From Verrucomicrobiaceae bacterium (GTDB lineage Bacteria; Verrucomicrobiota; Verrucomicrobiia; Chthoniobacterales; JAATET01), in contig JAIYAZ010000129.1 in the NCBI GenBank assembly GCA_027488755.1, forward strand, positions 1 to 56,653: 56,653 nt of DNA, in the 5' to 3' direction. Positions 3,678-45,845 of this stretch are shown here, piece by piece. Both the position numbers and the translations under genes were made by a program. Below the pieces are notes generated by a model that was not told the origin of the DNA, searched no databases, and saw only the letters and a program-made list of their open reading frames with translations. Within the stretch, counting starts at the first letter, position 1. Every line of letters starts with the position of its first letter.

Positions 3678-3692
3678 GCCCCGGCGCGGGGC
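3678..3692 (-). terminator. GC-rich hairpin at the stop codon of the giant protein
   Basis: GCCCC-GCGCC-GGGGC can fold immediately after the stop codon of the 5203-residue gene, and more C/G-rich sequence follows. There is no T-run, so it is at best a weak or Rho-assisted terminator. Confidence 0.25.
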
Positions 3693-19303: not shown

Positions 19304-19359
19304 CTGGGGGGATGGGCTGGGGGCAGAATAATTTCCGCGCGGACGGATGCACGATAATT

Positions 19360-19402
19360 TTGCGGCGAAGTTTTATGCGTTATTCGCATTTCTTGCGGCG
19401 AA
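19360..19402 (-). promoter_or_regulatory. Palindrome flanked by direct repeats upstream of the giant gene
   Basis: The inverted repeat ATGCG-TTATT-CGCAT (19375-19389) is centred between two identical 10-mers, TTGCGGCGAA, at 19360-19369 and 19393-19402, which are 33 bp apart (about three helical turns). The element lies 57-99 bp ahead of the giant gene start and just after the terminator of the upstream operon, so it is a likely promoter/operator. The regulator is unknown. Confidence 0.5.
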
Positions 19403-19408
19403 CGCCGG

Positions 19409-19448
19409 AAAAAATGCGCCCCGCTGCTTGGGAAAAGCGGCGGGGCGC
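19409..19448 (-). terminator. Intrinsic terminator of the polysaccharide operon
   Basis: On the minus strand a perfect 9-bp GC stem, GCGCCCCGC / GCGGGGCGC, with a 15-base loop is followed by ATTTTTT. It lies 53 bp after the stop of the sialate O-acetylesterase gene and separates the seven-gene operon from the giant-protein gene. Confidence 0.9.
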
Positions 19449-19501
19449 GCGGAAGGCGAAAGCGGGCGGAGTGGTCCCCTCCCCTCGCCGGCGGCGGGGC
19501 G

Positions 19502-23805: not shown

Positions 23806-23814
23806 GGGGGAATT

Positions 23815-25959: not shown

Positions 25960-25978
25960 GGGATAAAGGGGACGTGAG

Positions 25979-27493: not shown

Positions 27494-27514
27494 GGCGGGA
27501 GGGGGAAAGGGGGC

Positions 27515-29137
27515 TCAGGTTCGCGGCGGGTTGGGCCGGTAGTCAAAGTAATCAAAGTCCGCCCAGGCGGAGCGGTCGGAGAGGTCCTGGCAGCAGACGC
27601 CCCAGAACGTGCCGGTGAAGCTGCTGATCGTGGAGGCCCAGTCGCCGAGCATGGTAGCGTCGAAGTCGCGGTCCACGTCGTGCCATTGGGCACCGTCGAG
27701 CGACCACGCGAAGCGCATCCATTGGAAACGAATCGCCATGCGCAGGAAGAGGCGTTCGCCGGCGGCGAGCGGCAGCTCGGCGACTTCGAGGCGGCTGGCC
27801 TTCCCGTTTTCGGACGAGATCACGCCGAGCTTGAGGGTCCCCTCCCCTGCCGAGGTGGCGCGGAGGTAGTGGTAGTTGAGGCGGTCGTAGTAGGCGATGA
27901 GGCCGGCGGCCTGCTTGAAGTTGCCGGGCTGGAACGAGAGGCAGGTCTCGGCCTGCGCCTCGAAGTGCTGGAGGCGGCGCGCGACGAGGCTTTGATCGAA
28001 CGACGAGGCGAGCGAGTCGCGTCCGCGGAGGCTCAGCCAGCCGGGGCGGCGGGTGAGCGAGGCCCACGAGGCGTCGAGCGGCTCGCGGAGGGTCTGGAAC
28101 GCGGGGGAAAGCGCGGGGCCGTCGAAGTCGTCGCGGAGCGGCTCGGCGGGCCAGGGGTGGGCGGGGAGATTGATATCGACCGTGGCGCGCGGGGCGTTGG
28201 TGCCGCCGCCGAGCAGGCGCGGCCAGCCGTCGGCATCCCACGTGAAGCGCTGGAGGCAGGTTTCGCGGCCGAGCGGGGCGGATTTGTTTTCCTCGCGGTC
28301 GAGGACGAGCCGGCCCGGGCGCTGGAGGGGACGGTGGCAGAGGTGAACGGTGAACCATTCACCGGCGGGCGTTTCGACGAAGCAGCCGTGGCCGGCGGAG
28401 CGGACGGGCGCGTCCTCGTGGCCGAACGCGGTGAGCATGGGATTGTCGGGATGCGTTTCGTAGGGTCCCCAGAGGTCGCGGCTGCGGCAGATGCTGATGG
28501 CGTGCCGCCAGGCGGTGCCGCCCTCGGCGGTAATGAGGTAATACCAGCCGTCGCGCTTGAGGAGGTGCGGGCCTTCGGTGATGCCGATGGGGCTGCCGGG
28601 CCAGATTTTCCGCACGGGGCCGATGAGCCGGCCGGTGGCCGCGTCGTATTCCTGGAGGATGATGCCGTCGAACCGCACGGTGGTGACCGCCTCGCCCATC
28701 TGCATTTGGACGATGTATTTGCGGCCGTCGTCGTCGTGAAAGAGGCTGGGGTCGAATCCGCTGGCGTTGAGAAAGACGGGCTCGCTCCACGGGCCCTCGA
28801 TGCGATCGGCGGTGACGAGGTAGTTCGGCGTGTCCATCACGACGCCGCCCATGTGGTGGTGGACGTTCGTGTAGACGAGCCAGAATTTCCCGTCCGCGTG
28901 GGTGAGGCAGGGCGCCCAGATGCCGCCGGAGTTCTGGCAGCCGCGCATGTCGAGCTGCGAGACGCGGTCGAGCGCGCGGCCGAGCAGGCGCCAATGCACG
29001 AGGTCGCGCGAGTGGTGAATCTGCACGCCAGGGAACCACTCGAACGTCGAGGTGGCGATGTAGTAGTCGTCGCCGACGCGGCAGATCGAGGGGTCGGGGT
29101 TGAAGCCGGTGAGGATGGGATTCGTCGCCGTGGGCAT
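27515..29137 (-). CDS. Cytoplasmic GH43 (subfamily 11-like) beta-xylosidase/alpha-arabinofuranosidase
   Basis: The 540-residue protein has no signal peptide, so it probably works on imported oligosaccharides. The N-terminal five-bladed propeller starts at NPILTGFNPDPSICRVGDDYY, giving the general-base Asp in NPDPS; the pKa-modulating Asp is in ASGFDPSLF near residue 134 and the catalytic acid Glu in ITEGPHL near 196. The C-terminal half (about 330-540) is a concanavalin-like sandwich as in XynB-type beta-xylosidases. The likely reaction is release of xylose, or arabinose, from short oligomers, which would feed the xylose isomerase encoded further right. It lies 27 bp after the symporter gene and 21 bp before GH27. 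Confidence 0.92.
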   Translation of the reverse strand: MPTATNPILTGFNPDPSICRVGDDYYIATSTFEWFPGVQIHHSRDLVHWRLLGRALDRVSQLDMRGCQNSGGIWAPCLTHADGKFWLVYTNVHHHMGGVVMDTPNYLVTADRIEGPWSEPVFLNASGFDPSLFHDDDGRKYIVQMQMGEAVTTVRFDGIILQEYDAATGRLIGPVRKIWPGSPIGITEGPHLLKRDGWYYLITAEGGTAWRHAISICRSRDLWGPYETHPDNPMLTAFGHEDAPVRSAGHGCFVETPAGEWFTVHLCHRPLQRPGRLVLDREENKSAPLGRETCLQRFTWDADGWPRLLGGGTNAPRATVDINLPAHPWPAEPLRDDFDGPALSPAFQTLREPLDASWASLTRRPGWLSLRGRDSLASSFDQSLVARRLQHFEAQAETCLSFQPGNFKQAAGLIAYYDRLNYHYLRATSAGEGTLKLGVISSENGKASRLEVAELPLAAGERLFLRMAIRFQWMRFAWSLDGAQWHDVDRDFDATMLGDWASTISSFTGTFWGVCCQDLSDRSAWADFDYFDYRPNPPRT

Positions 29138-29164
29138 GGGGGATTGTCGGGGATTCTTGGGGCG

Positions 29165-31684: not shown

Positions 31685-31720
31685 GGGGTGGGGAGAAAAT
31701 GGAGGGACGACGGAAAAACT

Positions 31721-32809
31721 CTAGGGCAGCACCGCTTCGGGGGCACCACTTAACGCGGAACGGCGCAGGGCATCGAGCAGCCGGACGCCATAGAGCAGGC
31801 GCTGGGAGTCGCAGAGCGGCACGTCCTTCGCGCCGCGGATGGCCTGGTGGAAGGCCTCCCAGTTATACCATCCGGCGAAGGCGCCCGGAGCGGTGGCAAA
31901 GCGGGGGACCTCGCGGCCGGCGATGGTAAGCTCGGCGACGGCGCGGTCATCAGCCATGTCGGATCGGCCCGTGCGCTCGACCCAGCGGCGGACCGTGCCG
32001 CGCTCGAAGCTGAGGCGCACTTCGTCCCGCCAGGGCTGGCCGTCGGTCACACAAAATGACGCGAAGATGCTGGCGATGGAGCCGTTGGTGAAGCGGATCG
32101 ATATCTGGGCGTTGTCGGCGGTTGGGCGGCCGGTGAAGATGCGGGAGTGCATGACGTGCACCGACTCGGGTTCGCCGAGGAACATGGCGAAGTCGTTGAG
32201 AAAATAAACCCCGAGGCGCGTGATGGGGGCGGCGGGGCAGAGCGTGGGATCGTCATACCACGTGCCGGAGAATGTCTCGCGGTAGCTGGCCCAGGTGGCG
32301 GCGTGCAACCCGATGGGGCGGCCGAGGTCGAATTCGCGCACCCACTGCTCGATGCACTGGATGTCCTCGGAGGGCACGGGAGCGGGGGAGTTCAGGTGCA
32401 GCGCGAGGCCACGCTCCCGCGCGAGGGCCACCACGCTGCGGGCGGACTCGAGGTTCATCTCAAAGGGCTTGGTCGTCATGACGTGGCGCCCCCCCTGGAG
32501 GGCGGCCTGCACGAGTGCGGCGCGGCCGACCGGGGGCGTGAACAGCCCGACCGCCTCGACGTCGGCGGACTCGAGCAAGGCCTCGAGTGAAGCAAAAACG
32601 GGCACCCCAAGCTCGCCGGCCAGTCGCTCGGCGAGGGGCACGTTGCGGTCGCAGATTCCCACGACCCGCACGAAGGGATTTTCCTGCGCCAGTCGGCGGG
32701 CGATGCCCGCGCCAAAGTTCGCCCCCACGACGGCCAGGCCGACGGCCGAGGAGGTCGCGGTCGAGGGCGGGGCTTCGTTGAGGGCGCGGGGGGTGTTTTC
32801 GGTGATCAT
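31721..32809 (-). CDS. Gfo/Idh/MocA-family NAD(P)-dependent oxidoreductase
   Basis: ATG at 32809 gives 362 residues that begin just before the Rossmann fold; the 62-residue upstream extension is Pro/Arg-rich and lies in the leader, so it was excluded. The dinucleotide-binding loop is VGANFG near residue 26, and the usual EKP signature appears as TKP (MTTKPFEMN) near 115, keeping the catalytic-type Lys. Members oxidise, reduce or epimerise sugars or inositols; the substrate here is unknown but presumably comes from the glycan handled by the operon. It is the first gene of the seven-gene operon, with a 292-bp leader/promoter region carrying an operator-like palindrome. Confidence 0.88.
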   Translation of the reverse strand: MITENTPRALNEAPPSTATSSAVGLAVVGANFGAGIARRLAQENPFVRVVGICDRNVPLAERLAGELGVPVFASLEALLESADVEAVGLFTPPVGRAALVQAALQGGRHVMTTKPFEMNLESARSVVALARERGLALHLNSPAPVPSEDIQCIEQWVREFDLGRPIGLHAATWASYRETFSGTWYDDPTLCPAAPITRLGVYFLNDFAMFLGEPESVHVMHSRIFTGRPTADNAQISIRFTNGSIASIFASFCVTDGQPWRDEVRLSFERGTVRRWVERTGRSDMADDRAVAELTIAGREVPRFATAPGAFAGWYNWEAFHQAIRGAKDVPLCDSQRLLYGVRLLDALRRSALSGAPEAVLP

Positions 32810-32967
32810 TCCAAAATCGGTCGGTCGGCGCGGGTGGCCTCCATCGGGCCAGCCGCTTGCCGGGAGGCGAAAAACGGGGCGGGGGGGCGGAGGTTCATGC
32901 GCAAAAGGAAATTCAGGCGACGAGCTCCCGCCTTTTCCGGGAGGGAGGCCGGCCAGAGTTTGGTCCG

Positions 32968-32995
32968 AAAATAATGACAGGCCTTTGAATCGCAA
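32968..32995 (-). promoter_or_regulatory. Possible sigma70-type promoter of the polysaccharide operon
   Basis: On the minus strand TTGCGA (32995-32990) and TATTTT (32973-32968) are separated by 16 bp. They lie 7 bp downstream of the operator-like palindrome at 33002-33016. Both boxes match the consensus only partly. Transcription from here would leave a leader of about 150 nt before the oxidoreductase ATG at 32809. Confidence 0.35.
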
Positions 32996-33001
32996 TATTT
33001 T

Positions 33002-33035
33002 TCACAATTTTTGTGATTTCAGATTTCCAAATTTC
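33002..33035 (-). promoter_or_regulatory. Operator-like palindrome plus AAATTTC box ahead of the polysaccharide operon
   Basis: The perfect palindrome TCACAA-TTT-TTGTGA (33002-33016) is followed after 12 bp by AAATTTC (33029-33035). Spacing and composition match the element at 3574-3607 before the esterase gene. It lies between the LacI-type gene and the operon it probably controls. An additional short inverted repeat, TCAGA...TCTGA, covers 33019-33038. The rest of the 32810-33101 gap holds a C-rich leader and no gene. Confidence 0.55.
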
Positions 33036-33101
33036 TGACCAACCGCAAGGGTCCGGTATCCGGGGAGGTTTGGGGAAGGTCGGGAGGGGCCTGGCGGGAG
33101 C

Positions 33102-34172
33102 CTAAAGGCGGGCCGGGGCGGAGGTTTCGCCCGGGGCGAATCCCACGGGCAGCAGGATCGAGCGGCGGGATTCGTCGGGGTTTTTGATGCGGTGGACGAG
33201 CCGGCGAATGGCGGCGGCGCCGAGGTCCTCGTCGGCGACATCCATCACGGTGAACTGCGGCATGGAGCCGCCGGGGTAGATTTGCTGGTGAAAGCTGGTG
33301 ATGGAGACATCGGCGGGCACGCGGATGCCGCGTTGGGTGAGGTAGTGGTGGAGGGTGAGGGCGGTCATGGAGCTGCCGGCGATCCAGGCGGTGACGCCTT
33401 CTCGCTGGCAGCAGTCGACGCGGCCGCTCCATTCGCCGTCGTTGAAGGGATCGATGGCGAGCGCCTCGGTGAGGCTGATGGAGACCACGCGATCCATGCG
33501 GAACGGCAGGCCGAAGGTGACGAGGCCCTCGACGTAGGCAGCGAAGCGGGAGCGCGACCAGCTCACCTCGGGGCAAAGGCCGAAGAAGCCGATTTTTTGG
33601 TGGCCGGACTCGACGAGGTGGCGGACGAGGGAAACGACGCCCTGGCGATCGTCCGTCGTGACGAGGTCGATGGGGAGATCGGGGTAGGCGTGAACGATGG
33701 AGACGACGGGATACTGCTCGCTCAAGCGGCGGGCGATGGTCTCGGGCCAGCGGTGGATGAGCACGATGCCGTCGACGAGGCCGTTGCGCATGTTCACGGG
33801 CTGGCGGGCGGGGTCGAGCACGGACTCGGCGTCCTCAGGGCTGACGTGGTGGGAAAGGATGGCGAGGTTGAGCGGGACGGCCGCGGCGCTCATGCCGGCG
33901 AGGTAGCGCTGGTCGGCGTAGGCGACGGAGGCGTAGGCCATGGAGGCCGGCACGAGGGTGAGGATGTTGAGCGGCCGGGCGCGGCTGATGGGCCCCATGT
34001 TGCCCTCGTTGAGGTAGCCGATTTCCTTGGCGGTTTCGAAGACGCGGGCGCGGGTGGCGGTGTTGATGCCCGGCTCGTTGCGCAGGGCGCGGGAGACGGT
34101 GGAGATGGAGATGCCGAGTCGTTTGGCGATGCCGGCGAGGTTGACCTGGTTGGGGACGCGGGGTTTGTTCAC
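33102..34172 (-). CDS. LacI-family transcriptional regulator
   Basis: The protein has 356 residues and starts with GTG at 34172. The N-terminal helix-turn-helix reads NLAGIAKRLGISISTVSRAL, followed by the hinge-helix segment; the sugar-binding periplasmic-protein-like domain runs from about residue 68 to the end. Such proteins repress sugar catabolic operons until an oligosaccharide or sugar binds. It lies just upstream of, and in the same direction as, the polysaccharide operon (292-bp gap), which makes that operon the first candidate target. It starts only 36 bp after the pseudopilin C gene, so it may also be read through from the cassette. No obvious terminator was seen after its stop. Confidence 0.92.
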   Translation of the reverse strand: MNKPRVPNQVNLAGIAKRLGISISTVSRALRNEPGINTATRARVFETAKEIGYLNEGNMGPISRARPLNILTLVPASMAYASVAYADQRYLAGMSAAAVPLNLAILSHHVSPEDAESVLDPARQPVNMRNGLVDGIVLIHRWPETIARRLSEQYPVVSIVHAYPDLPIDLVTTDDRQGVVSLVRHLVESGHQKIGFFGLCPEVSWSRSRFAAYVEGLVTFGLPFRMDRVVSISLTEALAIDPFNDGEWSGRVDCCQREGVTAWIAGSSMTALTLHHYLTQRGIRVPADVSITSFHQQIYPGGSMPQFTVMDVADEDLGAAAIRRLVHRIKNPDESRRSILLPVGFAPGETSAPARL

Positions 34173-34208: not shown

Positions 34209-35102
34209 TTAGTTTGGACTCGCGAGGTTCACGCGGCGGGCGGCGCGGCGGCCGTATTTTTGGATGAGGAAATCCAGTGAGACATTGTTGCTCTCGCGAA
34301 GCAGCTTCGCTCCGGTTTCGTCGAGGATGGTTAAAGTGATTTCCGCGGATTTCGGACGGAGGTAGGGTTGTCCCGTAGTGGGATCAACATCTGTGTTATT
34401 GACCTTCACAGAATTACTCGCCAGCCGAACCGCATAATAAGCATCACTTCCTGTCTTATTGATCGGTCGCGTCGAACTGCCGCTGCTCAATGTGCCGTTA
34501 CCCGAGGCTGGGTCGATGGCGCGGTAGAACGCAATTTGGAATTCGACCACATTGGGCACAAGGAAATCATTCGCGGGGGGGCTGGCGGGAAACTCCTTGG
34601 CGTCGGAGAGATCGGACAGGCCGATGATTTTTTCGAAGGTCTTGTCGGCACTGACCGCGGTGCGGTAGAGCCCATAAGGAGTGCGCTTATCGTCATCCCC
34701 CGTAATCGGGTCCGCTCGTAGCAACTGGTAGCGCACCGCTCTTACCTGCCCCTGGTCGGTGGCATTTCCGTCGGAGTCCACGGGGGAGATCGTCAACATG
34801 GTCAACTGGGTGACGTTGGGCACGTCTTCCACGTTGCCAATCTGGGTTTGGAGGTATTCGGAATCGGGCAGGTTTGCCGCGAGGGACTCGAGGTCCATGG
34901 CGACCATGTCGAGGGCCGCCGAGGCCGCGCTCACCGTCTGCGAGCTTTCCGTCGTGCGCTTGGTCACGTCCATCGACTGGACGCTGAGGTTGACGAGCAG
35001 CACCAGGAGCAGGATCGAGATGCTCATGGCGACCATGAGTTCGATGAGCGTAAAGGCGGCGCGGGGCCGGAGGGGCGGCCTAGCGGGAAAGAACGACATC
35101 AT
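34209..35102 (-). CDS. Verru_Chthon cassette protein C (GspJ/PilW-like minor pseudopilin)
   Basis: The start is one of two adjacent ATGs at 35102/35099, giving 297 residues; upstream codons belong to the preceding gene. The prepilin signature AAFTLIELMVAM (Ala at -1, Phe at +1, Glu at +5) is followed by one hydrophobic helix, and the rest is a soluble globular domain. Size, order and signature fit Verru_Chthon cassette protein C and, functionally, a GspJ-like minor pseudopilin of a type II secretion or type IV pilus-like machine. It overlaps the B gene by about 20 bp, so the genes are coupled. The core secretion machinery (ATPase, secretin, inner-membrane platform) is not in the window. Confidence 0.82.
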   Translation of the reverse strand: MMSFFPARPPLRPRAAFTLIELMVAMSISILLLVLLVNLSVQSMDVTKRTTESSQTVSAASAALDMVAMDLESLAANLPDSEYLQTQIGNVEDVPNVTQLTMLTISPVDSDGNATDQGQVRAVRYQLLRADPITGDDDKRTPYGLYRTAVSADKTFEKIIGLSDLSDAKEFPASPPANDFLVPNVVEFQIAFYRAIDPASGNGTLSSGSSTRPINKTGSDAYYAVRLASNSVKVNNTDVDPTTGQPYLRPKSAEITLTILDETGAKLLRESNNVSLDFLIQKYGRRAARRVNLASPN

Positions 35103-35628
35103 AGGTAAAGGTGGCCTGGTTGTTGGACTGGGAGGGGGCCGCGGTGGACGGCACCACTTCCATGCGCACCTGCAGGGGCAGAAAAGCCTGGGGGTCGGCC
35201 GAGTTGGTGAAATCCGACACGGACGGATTGACCTTATAGTTGCCGGAGGCGGCATCGCGTAAGGCCACATTCGGCGAGAGGGTGAAGGTGAGCCGGAAGA
35301 GCTTTCCCTTGCGTTCGTCGGCGTCTGAATTTGCCTTCGCGGCTTCGGCGATTACGGCCTGCGCCGGAGCACCATTAGTGGATACGGTGTAACCATACAG
35401 GCCCTCAATTTTTCCCCCAGACAGGTCAGCCGCGACGTCATCGAAACCTTTTTCCGTCAAGTAGTCTGGGATGGCCCGACTGACGCTCAAGGACTCGTGC
35501 TGGGCGGCGGTGTCCGCGTTCACGTTGAGGGCGCCGCTGACCATCGAAAAGATGGCCAGCAGGCCAAAGCCCACGATGCCGATGGCGAGGATGACCTCAA
35601 TGAGACTGAAGCCGGCGGATTTTTTCAT
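35080..35628 (-). CDS. Verru_Chthon cassette protein B (GspI/PilV-like minor pseudopilin)
   Basis: The 182-residue protein has a short Lys-rich leader and a prepilin cleavage/methylation signature, SAGFSLIEVILAIG (Gly at -1, Phe at +1, Glu at +5), then a hydrophobic helix and a small C-terminal domain. It resembles GspI/PilV minor pseudopilins and Verru_Chthon protein B by order and size. Its ATG overlaps the stop of D by 4 bp (ATGA), and its 3' end overlaps C. It is the only protein in this cassette with the classical Gly at -1; the others have Ala. Confidence 0.82.
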   Translation of the reverse strand: MKKSAGFSLIEVILAIGIVGFGLLAIFSMVSGALNVNADTAAQHESLSVSRAIPDYLTEKGFDDVAADLSGGKIEGLYGYTVSTNGAPAQAVIAEAAKANSDADERKGKLFRLTFTLSPNVALRDAASGNYKVNPSVSDFTNSADPQAFLPLQVRMEVVPSTAAPSQSNNQATFTYDVVLSR

Positions 35629-36287
35629 GGCTGTTGGATATCATCGACGCTTTGGAAGAATTGCGGCCGGCCCATACGGAAGAGGGCGAAGCCGTAGAGG
35701 CTGCCCTTGTCGTCACGCTGCACGAAGGTGCCGCCGTTCATCGCACCGTGGGACACGACAACCTGAGGCGGCTTGGTGCCGGTGCCCGAGGGGGTGACGA
35801 GACCGTTGGGCGAGAATTCGTAGTAGGAATACCCGCTGCCCGAACCACTCTGCCCGGCGAAGGAGATGGTCATGTTTTTGTCGCCGGGAGGGTTGCTGTA
35901 GTTCGGGTTGAAGTAGGCGTTGCCGGGGAGTTTCTGCCAGCGCGACGCCTGGACCCAGGTCGGCGTGCCGGTGCTGTTGTCGAGGTAGGCCACGGTAACG
36001 CGGCGCAGGAAGTTCTCGGGCTGACTGCCGTTGTAGGAGGTGTCGACGACGACGCGGGTGGGCGTGCGCTTGAGGATGGCGAGGTTTCGGGCCTCGGAGG
36101 CGACGCTCGCGAGGAGGGCCGAGGCGGACTTGACGTCGTTGTTCGGGCTGCCGCGGAAGGCCGCGAGCCCGATGCCGGCCATGATGGCGATGATGGCCAT
36201 CACGACGAGGAGTTCGGTGAGCGAAAAGGCACCGGAGGTGGTTTTCGACCTGTAATTCTGGATCACTGATAAATTTGTCGCCTTCAT
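35625..36287 (-). CDS. Verru_Chthon cassette protein D (GspH-like pseudopilin)
   Basis: The 220-residue protein has a prepilin signature, SGAFSLTELLVVMAIIAIM (Ala at -1, Glu at +5), then a GspH/FimT-like pattern with a long helix ending in ASEARNLAILKRTPTRVVVD and a beta-rich C-terminal half. Its role would be as a minor pseudopilin in a type II-like filament. It overlaps X2 upstream by 4 bp and B downstream by 4 bp, both as ATGA, which argues for coordinated production in fixed ratio. Confidence 0.82.
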   Translation of the reverse strand: MKATNLSVIQNYRSKTTSGAFSLTELLVVMAIIAIMAGIGLAAFRGSPNNDVKSASALLASVASEARNLAILKRTPTRVVVDTSYNGSQPENFLRRVTVAYLDNSTGTPTWVQASRWQKLPGNAYFNPNYSNPPGDKNMTISFAGQSGSGSGYSYYEFSPNGLVTPSGTGTKPPQVVVSHGAMNGGTFVQRDDKGSLYGFALFRMGRPQFFQSVDDIQQP

Positions 36288-37033
36288 GGAGTTGAAGTTT
36301 GGTTACCCTTGGAGAGAGGGGCCGTAACGAAGCTTCCCCGGGAATCAACAATTCGACGGGCGGCGACAAGTCCGGCACTGTCTGGATTATTCCGCACAAA
36401 TACGAGCGTCCGCATTTCAGGGTTATACGCCCAGTTATTGCCATAGACCGACTTTACCCCTCCACTCGTAGCAGCAACAATGTTGGTATAAATGGTGGTG
36501 CGGTCCGTTCCCAACTTGGGTGTAAGCATCTTGGCATCTCCCGCGGCCAACTTGAAAACCTCGGCTCCACAGTTAACCGCGATTGGGAGACTGGACAAAT
36601 TAACAAATTTATAGGACCCAAATGGAAATGAAGCCGGGTCATCGGGAATGGCCGAAGCAATATACTTTGTGGTATTTCCTGAGGAAGATCCGGCAACAAC
36701 AATAAGGGGGAACTTACCCGATCCTTCAATGTTTACAGAAAAGACGGGAACCTTAACCTGCTTCCCTTCGGAGTCAGTCTCAATCCGGAAGAAAACAAGA
36801 TCCGGAGAACCTTTGTAGGTGTAAAAGTCGCTGCGGAACCCATCAAGAACCTCCACTCCCGCGGCAGTATCTTTCTTCGCATCATAGAAAATGTTCGAAA
36901 GGGAAAGATCCCACCCAAATAAGCGAAAGTTAGCCTCAACGGTTTTATCAGCAGAAGCTTGACCAAACGCAATGGAAATACTGGCGCTACACAGAAGCGC
37001 CACAAGCAGGATTCGATTAAAGATCAGTTTCAT
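36284..37033 (-). CDS. Secreted cassette partner protein X2 (unrecognised family)
   Basis: ATG at 37033 gives 249 residues with a signal peptide (about 1-26); the longer frame would need a TTG start inside the A2 gene. No known domain was recognised. It is a paralogue of the protein at 41145-41939: shared blocks include FRxxGW, FPxGSYxFxNLS and YGNNWAYNPxxRTLV (near residue 195). It overlaps the end of A2 by 17 bp and the start of D by 4 bp. Each A gene is followed by one such gene, so it probably partners or matures the large pseudopilin. The DNA is clearly AT-richer than the flanking operons. Confidence 0.75.
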   Translation of the reverse strand: MKLIFNRILLVALLCSASISIAFGQASADKTVEANFRLFGWDLSLSNIFYDAKKDTAAGVEVLDGFRSDFYTYKGSPDLVFFRIETDSEGKQVKVPVFSVNIEGSGKFPLIVVAGSSSGNTTKYIASAIPDDPASFPFGSYKFVNLSSLPIAVNCGAEVFKLAAGDAKMLTPKLGTDRTTIYTNIVAATSGGVKSVYGNNWAYNPEMRTLVFVRNNPDSAGLVAARRIVDSRGSFVTAPLSKGNQTSTP

Positions 37034-40000
37034 TGAGCCAGCGGAATGCCACAACCTTTAGCCTTCTTCCCAAGGTTTGGTTAGTTTTGTTTACGACGGC
37101 GTTTGGCGTTGAACTTGTCCACCAATCATAAACGGGGGTTGCATCACCTAAAGCGCGAGACTCGTCAGTAAATGGACTAAATCTGTTTTTGAGCGCGGCA
37201 TCGGATTGATCCACATACTCGGGCAAGCGCTGCACCACCGCCTCTCCCCACGCTTTTCCTTCGACTTTACCGGTGTTCGAATTTCGCACGTCCCCATACA
37301 CTCGCACCGTAAAGGTATCTGACCGGACCGACATGACGGGGGCAAATGCCTGAACAACGTCTTGCTGCAAAAGATACCCCGGAACGCCAACCGAGGTCCG
37401 AGGAGCCACAAAGGAATTGGCCGATGTCAGTTGGGGACCGACCGACTGCCCCGTCCCGAGCCAATTATAATTCGACGAACCAGGTTGGAGAAAATCGGTC
37501 ACTCCATAAGGGTCACCCGGAGCATACGACTGACCGCCCTGAGTTGATACAAAGTCGGATAAAACCGCCTGTCCGCGGAACTTCGTATTGGAGTTCACGC
37601 TGGAATTATCTATCGCCGCCTGCAGCGCTCCCATTGTCGTCAGCTGAGACTTGGTTGTTCCGAGGCGACGATTGAGAAAATCTCCCATACTCAAAAATGG
37701 ACCACGCTTCTTCACTTCCGTAACGATTTTCTCTGCGAGATCGCGGACTTCGGCATCAGAAAGATCACGCATACCTTCCCAAAGCTCGTTTTTCTGACCG
37801 GAGAGGGTGAAACTCCAAAACCGCGGAATGGGATTATTAAGGTCCGTCGATCGGAAGTTAAAAGCTTGATTCTGCTTCACGTTCCAGAGACGAAATTCCT
37901 TGCCCCTCAAACTGGACAGAAGCGCAACCCAAGCTTCGACGGAAGTAGAGTTAACGTTGAACGCACCATCAACCATCAGATTCGAAGACGCTTTCAAAGT
38001 ATTCCTAAGATTCGCTTTGAACGTTTCCACCGTGCTGCCATCACCATCACGCTTCCAAAACTTAATTCGCGAGTTTGCAAGCTTGACGCTACCGGCCACA
38101 AAGCCATCAATCCCAGAAGGTTGGACGGGATACCTATCCAAGCTATTGGCTGCGACTCCAGCAGGAGGGATGGTTGATAGAAAATAGCGGTCAAACAGGC
38201 TCTGATTAGCGGCAAAACTGTGATCAAATACAAAATTCGTTTGAGCAGTTGTATTGATATTGTTTACTCGCAGGTTGACACTTCGGTCCAAAGAAACATC
38301 GGGACTTGCATAGGAACCCCCAACCGATAATCCTGGATAGGAGACGTAGTCGTAGCTTCCTCCACTAAAGTAGAAACTCGCCATGTGCGTAAACTGTCCG
38401 AGCGAAACTAGGGGCTGAAAGGGGATATCATACAGAATGGCGCGGAAATTCTGCGCGGGAACGTCTACCGGTCTGTCACCAACGCTATACTGTCCGCCAC
38501 TTGTGACGGTCTGAGAATTGACGGTGGCGGTCTGGACCTCGGCCGTAGAGGAGAATGCCTTCAAATACTGGCCATTTACTTCCCTCCAGAGCCCGTAGAC
38601 CACATCGGACATCGTCTCCGAGTTACCTTGGAAGACAGGCATGTTGGTTTGCGCATTCGCGTATGAAGTCGAATTTGATGATGACGTCATCCCTTTCGAG
38701 CGAATGCTGAACCCAATGATGAGGATTCCGCTCCCCTCAAGGGAATTGACTGCACCGGACCAGTTCTTATTCTGAAACACAACCGGCGTGGGGCGGAAAG
38801 TTTGGAAACGGTTGTTCTCTCGAACGCCGCCATCCGGCCAACCGGTCAATCCGGCATTGGGTGCCCCCGGCGCGATGGTGAAATACGATGTGTTCGCGCG
38901 CATTCTCCCGCTAGAGAAAGTGATGGCGATTGTCGCGCCCGGATCAACCGACGTAGGAAGCTTGATTCTCCTTCCGAAATCCGTGGAAACATTCGGATTA
39001 CTACTTTTCAGATCTGGGATCTGAGAAAAAATCTGCGCGCTGTTTTTCTGCCATTCGTCGGTGCTGGTTCCGTTTCCAGTAATCCACGACGTTGCGGTCG
39101 AGTCTGAGGCAAGTCCAAAGACGCGGAACTCACCCGGTTCAAGTCGGCGAACATCGGCAGGATCGACCCGCCAATCCAGGCTGGATGAGCCGATCGGAAC
39201 CGGAACGTCGAAGGGCTTGAGCCCAACGTTGTTCACGGTGATCCTAATAAGGTTGTTATTGTTAACGTTTAGGTAATTAGCGTTATAGTTATACGTGGCA
39301 TTCTGCGTCGTCACCAGAGGCACAGCGTAAGGATTCCACAAGACAAACAGAGGCATCGACTTAATGTAGAGATCGTATTTGTTCGTGCTCGTATTAAACT
39401 CGCTGGTGATCGTCACATCCATTCGAGCCAAAGCAACCTTGGGCAAAAGCGGACTAGACACATGCTTATTGGTGAATCCCTGATCGTTATAGTTCGTAAG
39501 CGCTTGCGTCAGATTGCCTTGCGTCGAATAAAATCCCGTTATGCCGGCCGGAATTCCACCGGGATTCGTTCCCGCCCCCAAAGGAGCTCGCCACATCGGT
39601 GATGTTGTCTTAAAAAGGTTATAAAATTTGTAGAGCGTGAACCACTGTAACCCGTCAATCTTCACTTGATTTGTTGAGAAACTCGGATTTTGGGAGCCAT
39701 TGTAGGCAACTCGCGAGTTCGCTGGGCGGTAGACATAAATGGCACTTTTTCCCGAGCCGGAGGTGTTTTGGAGCCGCTTGAAGTTACCGCTTGGATTAGT
39801 GTTATTTACGAAGTCGTCTTCAAACGCAGCCGTCAGGTCAAACTTCAAACCTCCATCCCTTACATTCGAAAGGACGCCCCGCGAATAGATGGTTAGGTCC
39901 GTAAGGAGACGTTTATCAGAAAATCCCGCCTTGTTGGTTCCGCTCAGTTGCTTTAGCGAAGAGAAGTTACTGACTTTTTCCGAGTTTTCGTCCCGCAGGA

Positions 40001-40799
40001 TTGAGCTGGTGAAGGGCGAATCCTTAATCTTGGTAACCTCGTAGGATCCGGGTGCAAACGACGCAGCCGTCGAAGTTAAATAGTCAGACCGGCTCCCGAT
40101 AGATTCCGGAATTTTTGTTGAGGCAGGTAGGACGTTTGCTTTTATTCCTTCATCCGACACCCAGTAGGCATATCCCCCGCTGGTTTGGTTCGTCGTTTGG
40201 CCGTTGGTTTTTGGAACAATTATTGGAACAACAGGAGCAACCACAGATAAATTCTGATCTGCGCCTATATTCTTAGCTAACTCGACCGCGGTAAAGCTTG
40301 TCGGGGCATTCCTTTCCAAGGTCCCGGTCCAGCTCGTTGGATCGAGCTTAGCGGATTGCTTGGGCTGCGAAATCAGCCATTCTGGGCCTTCCTGGGAGGT
40401 GCTCCAAGAGCGAAGATCCGGTCCTGTCCCAACGTCCAGCATGTTATTCGCACCAGAATTGGCATTGAAGGTTTTCCAGACGCCGGTCCACAAGGGATTT
40501 GCCAGCGATGATTTTGATACATCAATGGTCGAGTTATCGAGAATGTCCGCTCGCGCCGAAACCCTCTGGTCGGGACCCACGGCTTTTTGCATTTGGGCGA
40601 GTGCCGAATTAAGGGCAAATAGCGCATTTTGGCGGGCCGCCTCGGTTTTAGCCGCGTTGGAAGCAGCGCGGCGCTCGATTTGGGAAAGCATGGTCGTGCC
40701 CACGACGAGCACGGTCACCAGGGCCAGGATCAGCAGGACGCCGACCAGCGTGAAAGCACGGGGCGAGGGTTCGAGTCGGATACGATGGGGAGGGAACAT
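37017..40799 (-). CDS. Verru_Chthon cassette protein A, copy 2 (large GspK-like pseudopilin)
   Basis: ATG at 40799 gives 1260 residues starting MFPPHRIRLEPSPRAFTLVG; 72 in-frame codons upstream were excluded because they separate the prepilin leader from any start. The leader cleaves before Phe of AFTLVGVLLILALV; Glu at +5 is replaced by Gly, as in GspK. A long helix with IERRAASNAAKTEAARQNA follows, then a very large beta-rich region and, near residue 1032, the FLNRR segment in a GPFLSMGDFLNRR block that resembles the SAM/HhH-like part of GspK. It ends in FRWLNETDL. The paralogue at 41965-45681 shares the N- and C-terminal blocks. It probably caps a type II-like pseudopilus. GC content is near 50%, well below the window average. 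Confidence 0.8.
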   Translation of the reverse strand: MFPPHRIRLEPSPRAFTLVGVLLILALVTVLVVGTTMLSQIERRAASNAAKTEAARQNALFALNSALAQMQKAVGPDQRVSARADILDNSTIDVSKSSLANPLWTGVWKTFNANSGANNMLDVGTGPDLRSWSTSQEGPEWLISQPKQSAKLDPTSWTGTLERNAPTSFTAVELAKNIGADQNLSVVAPVVPIIVPKTNGQTTNQTSGGYAYWVSDEGIKANVLPASTKIPESIGSRSDYLTSTAASFAPGSYEVTKIKDSPFTSSILRDENSEKVSNFSSLKQLSGTNKAGFSDKRLLTDLTIYSRGVLSNVRDGGLKFDLTAAFEDDFVNNTNPSGNFKRLQNTSGSGKSAIYVYRPANSRVAYNGSQNPSFSTNQVKIDGLQWFTLYKFYNLFKTTSPMWRAPLGAGTNPGGIPAGITGFYSTQGNLTQALTNYNDQGFTNKHVSSPLLPKVALARMDVTITSEFNTSTNKYDLYIKSMPLFVLWNPYAVPLVTTQNATYNYNANYLNVNNNNLIRITVNNVGLKPFDVPVPIGSSSLDWRVDPADVRRLEPGEFRVFGLASDSTATSWITGNGTSTDEWQKNSAQIFSQIPDLKSSNPNVSTDFGRRIKLPTSVDPGATIAITFSSGRMRANTSYFTIAPGAPNAGLTGWPDGGVRENNRFQTFRPTPVVFQNKNWSGAVNSLEGSGILIIGFSIRSKGMTSSSNSTSYANAQTNMPVFQGNSETMSDVVYGLWREVNGQYLKAFSSTAEVQTATVNSQTVTSGGQYSVGDRPVDVPAQNFRAILYDIPFQPLVSLGQFTHMASFYFSGGSYDYVSYPGLSVGGSYASPDVSLDRSVNLRVNNINTTAQTNFVFDHSFAANQSLFDRYFLSTIPPAGVAANSLDRYPVQPSGIDGFVAGSVKLANSRIKFWKRDGDGSTVETFKANLRNTLKASSNLMVDGAFNVNSTSVEAWVALLSSLRGKEFRLWNVKQNQAFNFRSTDLNNPIPRFWSFTLSGQKNELWEGMRDLSDAEVRDLAEKIVTEVKKRGPFLSMGDFLNRRLGTTKSQLTTMGALQAAIDNSSVNSNTKFRGQAVLSDFVSTQGGQSYAPGDPYGVTDFLQPGSSNYNWLGTGQSVGPQLTSANSFVAPRTSVGVPGYLLQQDVVQAFAPVMSVRSDTFTVRVYGDVRNSNTGKVEGKAWGEAVVQRLPEYVDQSDAALKNRFSPFTDESRALGDATPVYDWWTSSTPNAVVNKTNQTLGRRLKVVAFRWLNETDL
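40663..40757 (-). repeat. 95-bp near-identical segment shared by A1 and A2 (copy in A2)
   Basis: This stretch encoding the transmembrane pilin helix differs from 45461-45555 at only about nine of 95 positions, although most of the two genes has diverged strongly. It is also GC-richer than the rest of A2. Confidence 0.75.
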
Positions 40800-41144
40800 C
40801 TCGAAATGGCGGCGAACGTCACGGAACCGCAAATTTTGATTAGATTTCTTTGCAGAGACGCTTGGGATAGAGAAATGCAGGGGGACAGACGGCGGAATAC
40901 CTGCTTTGTGGGGGGAGCAGCTGATAGGGGAATGAACTACCTCAACAGTATGAATTCCGCCCCTTCTCGCAACATAAATTTCCAGAAAAGCGAATTTTTG
41001 TGATAAAGTTTCCATTCCTTCATCGCGACCCAGTTATTCGTTCTCCCACAACCCTGCCAAAAGGACCGGATTCGCGAGGGCGGAGGTTGTCCCACCGAGA
41101 AACGGGGTTGCCGCGACCGCAGGCCTGAACCAGCGGGACGGGGT
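40800..41144 (-). other. 345-bp intergenic region between X1 and A2
   Basis: No credible gene is present. It is moderately AT-rich in its middle and includes AATTTTTGTGAT (40993-41004), identical to 12 bp of the operator-like element at 33002-33035 but lacking the other palindrome arm. It may hold a secondary promoter for the A2-X2-D-B-C block. No strong terminator was seen after X1. Confidence 0.4.
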
Positions 41145-41939
41145 TCACCGCACGGTTTCTGGGCCGGTTTTTTTATCCGGCGGACGGAGGTAGGAGAAAT
41201 CCGCGCTCTCGGCGAGGCGCTGCACGCGAAGTTCACCGGGGCGGCGGTCGGTGTTGATGATGACGAGGGTGCGGACCATGGGGTTGAAGGCCCAATTGTT
41301 TCCGTAAACGGGTTTCCAAGCTCCGCTGATTTCGGCCGCAATTTTGCAGAAAATGGTCCTTCGTTCGCTGTCGGCTTTGGTCTCGATCACGCGATCCGTG
41401 AGGGGATTCAGTTTGATGGCATTATCCGCGAGAGAGGCACCGAGAAGGTTGGGCGAGAGATTGAGAAAGCGGTAGGAACCGGCGGGAAAACTTTTTAGAT
41501 CCTCGGGGATCACTCGAACGATATAAGCCTCGTCCTTGACGGGGCGCTTAAAAAAAAGAAGCAGGGGCCAGGGGCCTCCGTCCTTCAGTTCGGCGGTGGC
41601 GACCACCGTGCGGGTGGCGTTGCCTGCGACGTCCCTCGTAATGCGGTAAAACTCGATCGGCGTTGGGCCGTTGTAGGGGAAGAAGACCGAACGGCTGTCG
41701 GCGGGAACTTCGAAGGGAACGCCGGAGGCTCCCTTGGTGTCGTAGAGGAGTCCATCGACCGACTCCAGCCAACCGACAGTGCGAAACTGGATGTTTACGG
41801 TGGGCTTGCCCTCCTCGGTTTGGGCCGACATGTTCCCGACTCCCGCCAAGGCGCAAAAAAGAGGGAGCAGGATTGCCAGCCGGTAGTGTTGGCCGATACT
41901 CCAAGAAAGTCGCAAACCGGGATTTTTAAAAAGGGTCAT
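41145..41939 (-). CDS. Secreted cassette partner protein X1 (unrecognised family)
   Basis: ATG at 41939 gives 264 residues; a TTG six codons earlier was rejected. A hydrophobic segment after a basic N-terminus (LAILLPLFCALAGVGNMSA) looks like a signal peptide ending near residue 39. No known domain was recognised. Blocks shared with X2 are FRTVGW, FPAGSYRFLNLS and YGNNWAFNPMVRTLVI near residue 211. It starts 25 bp after the stop of A1, repeating the A-then-X order of the second pair. It is GC-richer than X2, so the two copies have drifted or have different histories. Confidence 0.75.
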   Translation of the reverse strand: MTLFKNPGLRLSWSIGQHYRLAILLPLFCALAGVGNMSAQTEEGKPTVNIQFRTVGWLESVDGLLYDTKGASGVPFEVPADSRSVFFPYNGPTPIEFYRITRDVAGNATRTVVATAELKDGGPWPLLLFFKRPVKDEAYIVRVIPEDLKSFPAGSYRFLNLSPNLLGASLADNAIKLNPLTDRVIETKADSERRTIFCKIAAEISGAWKPVYGNNWAFNPMVRTLVIINTDRRPGELRVQRLAESADFSYLRPPDKKTGPETVR

Positions 41940-41964
41940 GGGAGGAGGGCGGTGCAAGGGGGAA

Positions 41965-44900
41965 CTAGATATCGCTTTCGTTCAGCCAGCGGAAGGAGAC
42001 GACCTTGAACCGGCGGCCCAGCAGGCGATTCGTGTCTTTGACCGCGGAAACAGCGGCGGCGGCGGAACCGGTGGGAGGGCGAACGGCGGGGTCGGTTGGA
42101 TCGATAAACTCGGGCACTCGTTGCACCACGGCCTCGGCCCAAGCCTTGCCCTCGACGACATCAGAGTTGGGATTCCTGACTTCGCCGTAAGCGCGAATGA
42201 TGAATGTGTCGGAGCGGGCGGCGATGACTGGAGCCAGAACTTGCACCAAGTCCTGCTGCATGAGGTAGCCAGGCGTCCCCAAAGCGGTATTCCAAAAATC
42301 GACCATGGAGTATTTCATGTTTTCCAAAATAAATGCCGGAGCTTTTGGCTCGAGTGGTGCTGCCGCATTCACGGGCATCCCCGAGCTTTTGATTTCGCTA
42401 TTAATCGAAGTGGCGTCGATAGCTGCTTGGAGAGCACCCGATCGCGTTAGAGGACCAGCCGTTCCCAAGCGGCGATTGAGAAAGTCAGCAAGAGAAAGAA
42501 AGGGGCCGCGCAACTTAACCTGCTCGACGATCCGGGTGGCTAGGTCCGTGAGTTGGATGTCCGTGAGCAGACGAACTCCCGACCACGGGGTCTCGCGGGA
42601 ACCTGGTATGTTGGCGGTCGCGTTACCAGATGCGCTCCAAAAACGAGAAATCAGAGTGCCCGTGGATGGATTCATCGTTACTGCTTTCCGAGCAGTCGCA
42701 TCAAACAACTCAAGCTGCCCGCCACTAACGCCCGCCAGCACCGCCTTCCAAGCCTCGACCGATGTGCTGTTGATGTTGAAGGCACCATCCAGCAGCAGGT
42801 TGGCGGCGGCTTTGTTCACATCCCGCAAGTCCTCCAGTAGTGGCGGCGCGCCATTCGCAGGGTAAGGCTTCATCCTGGTATTGAGGAGCGGGGTGGATGC
42901 ATCGGACAGCGTTGTGCCGGAATTCGCACGGTTGAAATCGCTCCAGTAGGGCGGATAGGTCGTGGCTGGGGCATTAAGGTCCTTGGGCGGGACGGTGGAA
43001 AAGAAGAACCGGTCGAACAGGGCCTCGTTGGCCAGAAAACTATCGTCTAAGAAAAGCTTCGAATTCGGAATATTCCCGCCCGCCGTTCCGATCCCCAAGC
43101 TCAGGGCGGTGCGGTCCGTCTGAATAATCGGTGAGGCGTACGAGCCGCCCACAAACATGGAGCCAAATACCAACTGCTCATAAACCCCAATCGAGCGGAA
43201 GTTCGCGCTGGACATGTGCGAGAATTGCCCCAGGGAAAGCATGGGGATGCGCGGCACATCCCGCAAAACCACCCTAGTTCCGGGGGCGGCGGCAACCCCC
43301 GCGCTCTCATTACCGAAGGAGGTTTCCCAAGGGGCGGCATCGTCGAGCAGCACGTCGGTCTCGCCGCTGAGATAGTTATCGCCCAAGGGGCTGAGATAAA
43401 CTTCCTGCCACACGAAGGAAAAATTGTCGTCGATGGGTGAAGCCGATGCGGCATTGCCAGAGAAAAGGGGGACCTTGGTCGTTGCATTACTGTAGGTCCG
43501 ATTACTGGACGAGGTAGCAAGTCCCTTCGTTCGCACGTAAAACCCGATGATGCGGCGGGGGGCACCGTTGAGCGATTGAATCTGTAGACCCGAGGGCCAG
43601 GTTTTGCTCGCGGCGGCGGTTTCCCACCCCCCACTACCAGAGTAGCGGGTGGCGATGTTGGTGACGGCTCCATCATTCCAAGGCCATTTTAGACCATCGG
43701 GAAGGGCGTAGGTGTCGATGAATGCGCACCGCAACCGAAGCTGACTGATCAACACATTGATCGTGGCATTGCCATCGGTCGTGCCGCTGAATCCGGGCAG
43801 GTCGGTAGTTTGCGAGAAGTCTGCCGACATGTCGGCATCGCTCACCAGATCAGTGAACGTGTGGGCGGCGAGGATGGACGTTCTGGGAACGTCCTGGTTC
43901 AACGCAAAAACCCGGGTCTCACCGGGCTCCAAAACGTTGCAAGCCCCCGCGGCCGTCCGAAGCTGCAGACGTCCGCGATATTCCGTCTCCTGATTGAGCA
44001 CGATGGCATTGGCGGCAAAGGCCGGCGCGTTATCATACGGATCATCAAAGGGGGTTGGCAGAAGCACGGGACTCCCACCGACCGCAACGTTGATAGAGGT
44101 TCGCGTTCCTGCCGTGGCAAACGCACCAACGTTGCGCTGAAACTGGTAGTTGTTGAACTGGAGCTGCACGCTGTAGGGATTCCAAAGCACGAGTTGGGGA
44201 TAGTAGTGGAGGCGAAGTCTCCAAAGGCCGGCCTGAAAGTAACTCGACAGGGCAATATCCACCCGATAGGCGATCGGAACGGGCATGAGGGCACCGAGTT
44301 TGGCGATGCTCGTGCCATTGCTAGACACATTCAGGGAAATCACCCTCTGCGAAACCACGCCCGGGAGCACCGCAGGATTTCCGTTGCTCGTTGGAGTGAT
44401 GGATGAGCGAGTCAAGCCGGGCGTTGGAACGGGCATCTGCCCCTTGTAGGAATTGTAAAAGGAGTAGAGGGAAAACCAGTGCAAGCCGTCGGTCGGCGGA
44501 CTCACTCCGGTATCAATTGGGGGCACGCTCAGACCCGCACTCGTGGCCGACCGATAGAGCATGCCCGCACCGTAACCATAATCGTTGCTCAACGCCGCGT
44601 AGGCCGAGCCATTCTCAAAGGCCGCGGTGAGATCTTTGCGCAGTCCGCCCCGCCGGACGTCGGCCAAGACTCCAGCACTGCACGAAGTCGCATCCGCCGC
44701 CAGCAGCGAAGACTTGTTTCCGGAGAGGCTACCCGCAGCGACTCCAGGCACCCTTTGAAGGGAGGCTAATGTGGAGACTTTTGCCAAGTCCTCCGAAGCG
44801 GTGGCCCGTAAATCCGTCTGGTTAACCGAACCGAGGATTCCTTTATGGGGAGCCGCCGCCTGGGAGGCGAGATGGTGGAGTTGGCGCTCTACGGGCCCAG

Positions 44901-45681
44901 GGGCAACCAAGGTTGGCGCGGGCGAATTCACCTTTGCCTTCACCCCCTCATCCGAGACCCAATAGGCGTAGGCGCCGGCTGTCACCGTCTGGTTTCCCAT
45001 CGGTTTCTTGAGCTCGACCAAGGGAACGGTAACCGTCGAGACTGATGCAACCCGACCATAGTTGCGGGCTATCACCACCGCGTCGCGGGAACTTCCGGAA
45101 CTCACTCCGGCGAAAGTCAACGGGCTGATTTGAGGGGCGCTGTTTCCGGGGTTTGAAACCAACCATATGGCAGCCTGAGCTTTATCGGAAGCTGTCGGAT
45201 TGGCGGCACCCAGGCTGGTCACGCGCTGCGGCGTGCCGGTGTTCACGCGGTCGAGGCTCGCGTTGCCGGTGACCCATGCGCCGGTCCAGTAGGGTTGATT
45301 CACGCCGTCGATCGTCGCGCTCGCGGCATCGCTGTCCAAAATCTCCGCGCGAGCCGTCACCCGCTGGTCGGGGCCGGTCTCTTTCTGCAGCTGGCCGATC
45401 GCCGTCGTGAGCGCAAAGAGGGCGTTTTGGCGGGCGGTTTCGGTCTTGGCCGCGTTGGCGGCGGCGCGGCGCTCGATTTGGGAGAGCATGGTCGTGCCCA
45501 CGACGAGCACGGTCACCAAGGCCAGAATCAACAGCACGCCCACCAGCGTAAACGCCCGCGTCCTCCCCCCAGACCGCCGGGGCTTCGGGCAAGGGCGGCG
45601 GCGTTCGCGATGCGCGCCCGCGGACGGGAACGGACTCGGACTGGTCACCTTGGTGGCCGCCTGGCGGGGGATACGGATCAT
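41965..45681 (-). CDS. Verru_Chthon cassette protein A, copy 1 (large GspK-like pseudopilin)
   Basis: The 1238-residue protein has a 43-residue basic leader ahead of AFTLVGVLLILALVTVLVVG; cleavage would fall between Ala and Phe, and Glu at +5 is Gly as in GspK. The following helix (IERRAAANAAKTETARQNA) is nearly identical to copy 2. A large beta-rich body follows, then GPFLSLADFLNRRLG near residue 1058 and the C-terminal FRWLNESDI. It is the first gene of the cassette, preceded by a terminator for the rhamnose gene and a promoter region with a TTTGCGCAAA palindrome. It is a likely tip pseudopilin or surface-exposed adhesin of a type II-like system; its export partners are not visible here. 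Confidence 0.82.
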   Translation of the reverse strand: MIRIPRQAATKVTSPSPFPSAGAHRERRRPCPKPRRSGGRTRAFTLVGVLLILALVTVLVVGTTMLSQIERRAAANAAKTETARQNALFALTTAIGQLQKETGPDQRVTARAEILDSDAASATIDGVNQPYWTGAWVTGNASLDRVNTGTPQRVTSLGAANPTASDKAQAAIWLVSNPGNSAPQISPLTFAGVSSGSSRDAVVIARNYGRVASVSTVTVPLVELKKPMGNQTVTAGAYAYWVSDEGVKAKVNSPAPTLVAPGPVERQLHHLASQAAAPHKGILGSVNQTDLRATASEDLAKVSTLASLQRVPGVAAGSLSGNKSSLLAADATSCSAGVLADVRRGGLRKDLTAAFENGSAYAALSNDYGYGAGMLYRSATSAGLSVPPIDTGVSPPTDGLHWFSLYSFYNSYKGQMPVPTPGLTRSSITPTSNGNPAVLPGVVSQRVISLNVSSNGTSIAKLGALMPVPIAYRVDIALSSYFQAGLWRLRLHYYPQLVLWNPYSVQLQFNNYQFQRNVGAFATAGTRTSINVAVGGSPVLLPTPFDDPYDNAPAFAANAIVLNQETEYRGRLQLRTAAGACNVLEPGETRVFALNQDVPRTSILAAHTFTDLVSDADMSADFSQTTDLPGFSGTTDGNATINVLISQLRLRCAFIDTYALPDGLKWPWNDGAVTNIATRYSGSGGWETAAASKTWPSGLQIQSLNGAPRRIIGFYVRTKGLATSSSNRTYSNATTKVPLFSGNAASASPIDDNFSFVWQEVYLSPLGDNYLSGETDVLLDDAAPWETSFGNESAGVAAAPGTRVVLRDVPRIPMLSLGQFSHMSSANFRSIGVYEQLVFGSMFVGGSYASPIIQTDRTALSLGIGTAGGNIPNSKLFLDDSFLANEALFDRFFFSTVPPKDLNAPATTYPPYWSDFNRANSGTTLSDASTPLLNTRMKPYPANGAPPLLEDLRDVNKAAANLLLDGAFNINSTSVEAWKAVLAGVSGGQLELFDATARKAVTMNPSTGTLISRFWSASGNATANIPGSRETPWSGVRLLTDIQLTDLATRIVEQVKLRGPFLSLADFLNRRLGTAGPLTRSGALQAAIDATSINSEIKSSGMPVNAAAPLEPKAPAFILENMKYSMVDFWNTALGTPGYLMQQDLVQVLAPVIAARSDTFIIRAYGEVRNPNSDVVEGKAWAEAVVQRVPEFIDPTDPAVRPPTGSAAAAVSAVKDTNRLLGRRFKVVSFRWLNESDI
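45461..45555 (-). repeat. 95-bp near-identical segment shared by A1 and A2 (copy in A1)
   Basis: Partner of 40663-40757, with roughly 90% identity by eye, covering the transmembrane pilin helix. Confidence 0.75.
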
Positions 45682-45805: not shown

Positions 45806-45845
45806 AAAAAAAAGACCGCGCCAACCCGGTTGGGCTGACGCGGTC
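45806..45845 (-). terminator. Intrinsic terminator after the rhamnose aldolase/dehydrogenase gene
   Basis: On the minus strand GACCGCG...CCAACC-G-GGTTGG-CGCGGTC forms a long stem, followed by eight Ts. It starts 19 bp after the stop at 45865 and separates this gene from the pseudopilin cassette. Confidence 0.92.

Follow-up and report, generated by a model that had tools for sequence, protein, structure and literature searches.

What does a row of seven genes, in which two giant pseudopilin-like proteins are each followed by an exported protein, do beside a glycan locus of a Verrucomicrobiaceae bacterium (GCA_027488755.1, contig JAIYAZ010000129.1)? The row occupies positions 34209-45681 of the window, i.e., of the whole stretch of 56,653 nt analyzed in this work, and the translations bear out the order A1-X1-A2-X2-D-B-C on the minus strand that was given in the preliminary description. 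The features are listed below as they follow each other along this strand.

45814..45845, minus strand: terminator-like hairpin of 14 pairs with 8 T, separating A1 from the aldolase/dehydrogenase gene upstream of it
41965..45681, minus strand: A1, giant GspK-like pseudopilin of 1238 aa; prepilin signature without Glu at +5; likely start ATG 45681
41145..41957, minus strand: X1, exported partner made of two beta-sandwiches, with an N-terminal signal helix; likely start ATG 41939
37017..41015, minus strand: A2, second giant GspK-like pseudopilin
36284..37054, minus strand: X2, exported partner of A2, overlapping the end of A2; likely start ATG 37033
35625..36287, minus strand: D, GspH-like minor pseudopilin with the signature SLTE; 4-nt overlap with X2; likely start 36287
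35080..35628, minus strand: B, GspI/PilV-like minor pseudopilin with the signature SLIE; 4-nt overlap with D; likely start 35628
34209..35102, minus strand: C, GspJ-like minor pseudopilin with the signature TLIE; overlaps B
3692..34172, minus strand: glycan locus adjoining the row on the same strand

The mature A1 protein begins at F44 (window position 45552). A2 has 1332 aa from its first ATG and 1260 aa from ATG 40799, which is the likely start, and the sizes stated earlier for the two A proteins (1238 and 1260 residues) stand when A2 is read from there. The ORF of C opens at 35270, with a likely start at 35102/35099. A1 and X1 are separated by 8-26 nt, and X1 lies about 350 nt from the likely start of A2, while the genes from A2 through C overlap one another, which points to coupled translation. 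The hairpin upstream of A1, known by its match to the consensus alone, has a stem far longer than any other in the scanned region. The glycan locus encodes a LacI regulator, GFO/IDH, a sodium symporter with kelch, GH43, GH27, beta-helix and heparinase-like proteins, a SASA esterase and a 5203-aa Ig/FN3/PATR protein.

The prepilin signatures agree with those reported before: Glu at position +5 is present in D (AF-SLTE), B (GF-SLIE) and C (AF-TLIE) and absent from A1 and A2, whose signature AF-TLVG has Gly at this position (mostly GF-ALV in their relatives). This prepilin-type N-terminus without Glu at +5 is the one that characterizes GspK, and the C-terminal PFLSLADFLNRRLG block described earlier is also present in both A1 and A2. 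D, B and C score above the gathering score (21.2 bits) of the Pfam N-terminal methylation motif PF07963, with 22.8, 26.6 and 23.7 bits. With the family-specific NCBIfam models, the scores of A, B, C and D are above chance, yet below every curated cut-off. D reaches 26 bits with GspH (cut-off 80) and 22.3 bits with TIGR02596 (cut-off 70). The best match of B is PilV (24 bits), followed by TIGR02598 (19.4 bits, cut-off 51.4) and GspI (17 bits), and C matches ComGC (29 bits), TIGR02599 (25.6 bits, cut-off 256.5) and HpsC (25 bits). A1 has 20 bits with the GspK model (NF037980, cut-off 130). TIGR02600 gives 30.9 bits for A1 and 26.8 bits for A2 against a cut-off of 332.3 over 1296 positions, and the match is confined to profile positions 4-61. 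Among 33 A-family members, 25 match TIGR02600 weakly and N-terminally (best E 1.8e-8), 19 match the GspK model (best E 5.6e-5) and one matches Pfam T2SSK (E 0.024); the match of A to PilX_N is weak (11.9-12.7 bits, threshold 25.5).

Thus, the check with TIGR02596, TIGR02598, TIGR02599 and TIGR02600 that had been proposed for the row yields above-chance matches to A1, A2, B, C and D, and all cut-offs are missed. The name divergent Verru_Chthon cassette fits loosely: a weak TIGR02600 match does exist, but it covers only the first ~60 residues and misses the cut-off tenfold. Similarly, the proposed resemblance of D, B and C to GspH, GspI and GspJ is seen in the weak GspH and GspI matches and in the GspH-I-J-K order of relatives, but not at the level of curated cut-offs. 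Because these were missed, we describe the row as working like GspHIJK and claim no membership in a filed family.

The closest view of what A may be came from its predicted structure. The mature A1 protein (1195 aa) was modelled with 33 sequences, giving pLDDT 74 and pTM 0.82, with low confidence in places within the inserted part. When the model was compared by VIA-align with 699 chains, only four of them exceeded Z 5 and all four were GspK, the next chain having Z 4.0. These four (5vtm_X, XcpX, Z 10.9, 223/259 residues; 6utu_C, GspK, Z 10.5, 227/261; 9a1f_T, GspK, Z 10.2, 260/295; 3ci0_K, ETEC GspK, Z 10.2, 247/280) align with rmsd 2.9-3.4 over 86-88% of each chain. The aligned range extends over model residues 1..1195, so that the ~900 extra residues interrupt the GspK core instead of extending one of its ends. 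A1 therefore has the GspK fold in a predicted model rather than an experimental structure. A model of A lacking such a core, the outcome set beforehand as contrary to the GspK comparison, was looked for and did not occur. Foldseek of the A1 model against PDB placed 3ci0_K second (E 0.3) and also listed XcpX, with no significant match; the search of PDB with the A sequence gave no match. In hhalign, the A profile and E. coli GspK aligned over only 19 helix residues with a probability of 3.5%. Since the profile comparison aligns the helix only, homology between A and GspK rests on fold, position and signature. On these three grounds a GspK-like nature of A, as claimed previously, is well supported by the model, and A would work like GspK, although we do not file it under the GspK equivalog.

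The evidence of position comes from relatives. In family f17, X is single in almost all of the genomes found, and the genes follow each other on one strand as one or two PulG-like genes, D, B, C, A and X (nine loci: L084, L087, L088, L091, L094, L095, L096, L101, L102). Without X, this is the order GspG-H-I-J-K of E. coli, and the f17 row is the strongest argument for equating D, B, C and A with H, I, J and K. Thus, A lies directly 3' of the GspJ-like gene in these relatives, whereas in the window the A-X pairs precede D-B-C. A similar order (A-X-X-D-B-C) was revealed only in G084/L036, a single contig with two ids, and its A belongs to a different clade from the A of the window.

A scan of genome contigs with the A profile revealed 38 Verrucomicrobiota loci. 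X is located directly 3' of A in nearly all complete loci, and likewise in further regions of other genomes, which suggests that X acts with A. Most A-X pairs have no pseudopilin genes (D-B-C) alongside, which means that a fixed D-B-C-A complex cannot be the general rule. Of the 388 genomes of the phylum, 66 match the X profile, 24 of them with at least seven candidates. Culturable carriers of the pair include Rubritalea marina, Persicirhabdus sediminis, Cerasicoccus frondis and Haloferula luteola. The main new point of this work is that A-X forms a module which is conserved across Verrucomicrobiota, mostly stands alone and often occurs in many copies, and in our judgment this pair is the more interesting unit.

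X itself has no meaningful match in Pfam or NCBIfam (X1 and X2, best E 0.1), and 31 X relatives gave one stray weak Pfam match only. X1 and X2 are 33% identical. After its signal helix, the confident X1 model (pLDDT 88) contains no secondary structure other than strands, which form two beta-sandwiches. The nearest chains are the PepT1/2 ectodomains (Z up to 13.1) and, for the second sandwich, cytolysin domain 4, HGSNAT and AlgF domains (Z about 9-10). Such folds resemble widespread sandwiches of the Ig/transthyretin-like kind, and we rejected reading a function of X from its fold. Homology of X to the insertion of A was likewise rejected, as nothing aligned beyond a 22-column stretch. X is an unnamed protein family tied to the putative A tip in dozens of genomes.

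The two A-X pairs of the window had been taken for a tandem duplication. Such an origin in this lineage would account for their adjacency and common orientation and for an N-terminal helix that is 85% identical and includes an identical run of 34 nt. In the tree of A proteins, however, A1 groups with L023-L025 (bootstrap/aLRT 97/97) and A2 with L028 (87/89), and forcing A1 and A2 into one clade is rejected (lnL difference 47.7, p-AU 0.0018). The GC contents differ as well: 0.51 for A2 and 0.49 for X2 vs 0.66 for the window. The shared helix is more simply attributed to constraint or an old exchange, and a tandem origin of the two pairs is very improbable; A1 and A2 are old separate lineages placed side by side. 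In a single-sequence search, X was found in only 2 of 213 genomes of the order to which the window belongs and in none of the three other genomes of its genus; together with the deviating GC of A2 and X2, this rarity suggests acquisition from outside. It should be noted that true tandem duplication does occur in the A family, as neighbouring copies are each other's closest rows in the tree in six loci (L033, L058, L065, L081, L083, L104).

How can old separate lineages share a helix? The identity of A1 and A2 is 85% within mature residues 1-60 and about 37% in their bodies, while A1 and its orthologues share 43% over the same 60 residues; the relation is reversed over most of the remaining length. 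Same-genome A pairs behave similarly in L058 (helix/body 87/24%) and in L033 and L065 (90/34 and 97/61%), and in a broken third A copy on contig 30, 62-63% of the helix is shared. In different-genome pairs of like body identity the helix averages about 40-54%, pairs of high body identity being few. No such within-genome excess of identity is seen in the C-terminal core of A, and the constancy of the helix is weak or absent in two genomes, G311 and Cerasicoccus. Apparent duplicates (G579/L033, G365/L022, G249/L027, G084/L036) were each counted once, and the helix figures come from few genomes and non-independent pairs. Recent gene conversion was rejected, because silent sites of the shared helices have diverged in most pairs (third-position identity 0.25-0.62); this speaks for constraint at the protein level, imposed by a docking partner in common, rather than for recent copying. 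The 34-nt run of the window pair may reflect an older exchange. The within-genome constancy is a lead rather than proof, and a shared helix with differing bodies is consistent with exchangeable tips on one core machine.

Such a machine is encoded elsewhere in the same genome, which contains several PF00437 ATPases and four secretin matches. Contig 39 carries an ATPase, a secretin and a GspG-H-I-J-K row, whose GspK is an ordinary one (T2SSK_1st, E 1e-13), so the set in the window is additional and not a replacement. The genome also contains three other cassettes, all ordered D-B-C-A and all with a small exported gene behind them; in two of the three, this gene gave no hhalign alignment with the X profile, and its homology to X was rejected.

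These cassettes, together with the weak N-terminal TIGR02600 matches of 25 of the 33 A-family members, are what speaks for the row being an ordinary Verru_Chthon cassette (TIGR02596/02598/02599/02600) devoid of a special tip function. The row does come from the same phylum and has a similar gene set. But its scores (31 of the required 332 bits, 22 of 70, 19 of 51 and 26 of 256) are far too low, its order is A-X-A-X-D-B-C instead of D-B-C-A, and X forms a separate family that the exported genes behind two of the cassettes do not join. An ordinary cassette is thus improbable, and filing the row under this name is largely refuted; our literature search found no paper naming Verru_Chthon. A better case can be made for a row that primes a type IV pilus, in which D-B-C-A would be FimU-PilV-PilW-PilX, X would stand in for PilY1 and A would be a glycan adhesin at the tip. 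PilV as the best NCBIfam match of B and the PilX_N matches of A agree with it, some of the PF00437 ATPases may be pilus ATPases, and ComZ of Thermus thermophilus is a competence-pilus pilin that combines a GspK-like domain with a large inserted receptor domain (PMC6561018). On the other hand, the A1 model covers nearly the whole length of GspK chains, no PilX chain was among the VIA-align matches listed (an absence that is not proof), and the pattern of order and sizes is that of GspH-I-J-K. X is also far smaller than PilY1. We regard a pilus as the less likely machine.

The reading that we somewhat favour is that the row supplies a type II secretion-like piston with a second set of minor pseudopilins for an alternative tip, with A1 and A2 as alternative caps and X1 and X2 as their dedicated partners. 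D, B and C would play the parts of GspH, GspI and GspJ and build the tip, and the GspK-like A1 or A2 would cap it, the ~900-residue insertion projecting beyond the tip, outward or towards the secretin. Each exported X would serve its own A as a chaperone or co-receptor, probably bound to it in the periplasm or at the tip. The ATPase, secretin, GspG and normal-sized GspK set encoded elsewhere would drive the tip. As the docking helix of A is constant in some genomes while the bodies vary, different A-X pairs could be loaded on one core. The most likely use would be to engage an exported enzyme or an extracellular polymer of the neighbouring glycan locus. A wider version of this proposal, somewhat less probable than the pilus and offered as speculation, is an exchangeable-tip system in which one core T2SS serves a large number of giant GspK-like caps, every one of them paired with an X of its own, and bodies diversify under a retained helix to match exported enzymes or glycans, as a counterpart of the SusC/SusD pairs of Bacteroidota. 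How a T2SS recognizes its cargo is an old problem that has mostly been approached in machines with a single tip set. Should one core be shared by numerous A-X pairs, variation within a genome would reveal the tip surface that sets specificity, and swaps of bodies under a constant helix would test tip specificity directly.

Among known systems, GspK/XcpX (NF037980, PF03934, PF21687; 3ci0_K, 5vtm_X) resembles A in the lack of Glu at +5, the position after GspJ in relatives and the core fold of the model. A differs in its size (about 1200 vs about 300 residues), large insertion, X partner and missed cut-offs, and it often lies away from H-I-J and in numerous copies. The solved structure of T. thermophilus ComZ, argued to be a tip receptor, also has a large domain inserted into the fold of a GspK-like pilin; unlike in A, this is a beta-solenoid of about 380 residues between the last two strands, it belongs to a DNA receptor of a competence pilus, and the adjacent partner is the pilin PilA2 and not X (PMC6561018). 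According to the passages considered here, PilA/PilB/PilC of Streptococcus sanguinis are like A in joining a pilin to large modules, on which the binding specificity of the filament depends, but belong to a monoderm type IV pilus without X, and a GspK core is not reported in these passages (PMC8179133, PMC9934059).

At first look, genes for GH, sulfatases and lyases seemed frequent in the named A-X loci. The idea that A-X is generally linked with carbohydrate genes, for which a survey beside polysaccharide loci had been suggested earlier, was rejected: arbitrary regions of the same genomes were not clearly poorer, e.g., among the top 25 families listed, sulfatases occurred in 8/74 flanks of A-X in multi-copy genomes vs 4/74 such regions. 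Given this control, we claim synteny with glycan genes for the A1 clade only. The relatives of A1 are Akkermansiaceae/Verrucomicrobiaceae copies that have GH43 and beta-helix neighbours in common. L023 and L024 carry the GH43 (76-77%) and the beta-helix protein (59-60%) of the window, and L024 additionally shares the heparinase-like (51%) and esterase (38%) genes. Thus, A1-X1 keeps company with the glycan locus in spite of an identity of only about 47% between A1 and these relatives. In Verruconatronum alginivorum, another member of Verrucomicrobiota, a pseudopilin family with 67 homologues in one genome belongs to an alginate locus, and one pseudopilin is over-expressed on alginate (PMC13274419). 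It is like A-X in its many homologues and unlike it in being PulG-like; compared by description only, these alginate-linked pseudopilins would fit a role of A-X in glycan use.

Each of the three D-B-C-A (Verru_Chthon) cassettes in the window's own genome is followed by a small exported gene:

L016, 8831–9619, small exported gene
L017, 11588–12367, small exported gene
L018, 7147–8004, small exported gene

Because such a gene trails all three cassettes and neither of the two that were compared with X, the exported two-beta-sandwich partner of A, could be aligned with it, the pairing of A with a small exported protein encoded after it may be a general feature, yet one that involves non-homologous proteins.

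An X-X tandem pair was revealed behind one A in three genomes:

L082, 9028–10633, X-X pair
L103, 3914–6002, X-X pair
L036, 12407–13922, X-X pair

The order is reversed at L078 (7982–12311), with X before A, and at L075 (7864–8601) an X is present for which no adjoining A was seen. The A-family reading frame at L099 (5520–11489) comprises 1989 aa, much longer than other members.

On contig 30 of the window's genome (L015, 4418–5862), a third A copy is located after a PATR-repeat protein of 622 aa. It is broken, its N-terminal part being followed by a disruption; its helix is 62–63% identical to those of A1 and A2.

The neighbouring glycan locus includes the following gene:

Window, 3692–19303, minus strand, 5203-aa protein with about 10 Ig domains, a PATR repeat, and PKD, FN3 and HYR domains

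This protein is a candidate for a cargo of that locus or for one of its surface proteins.
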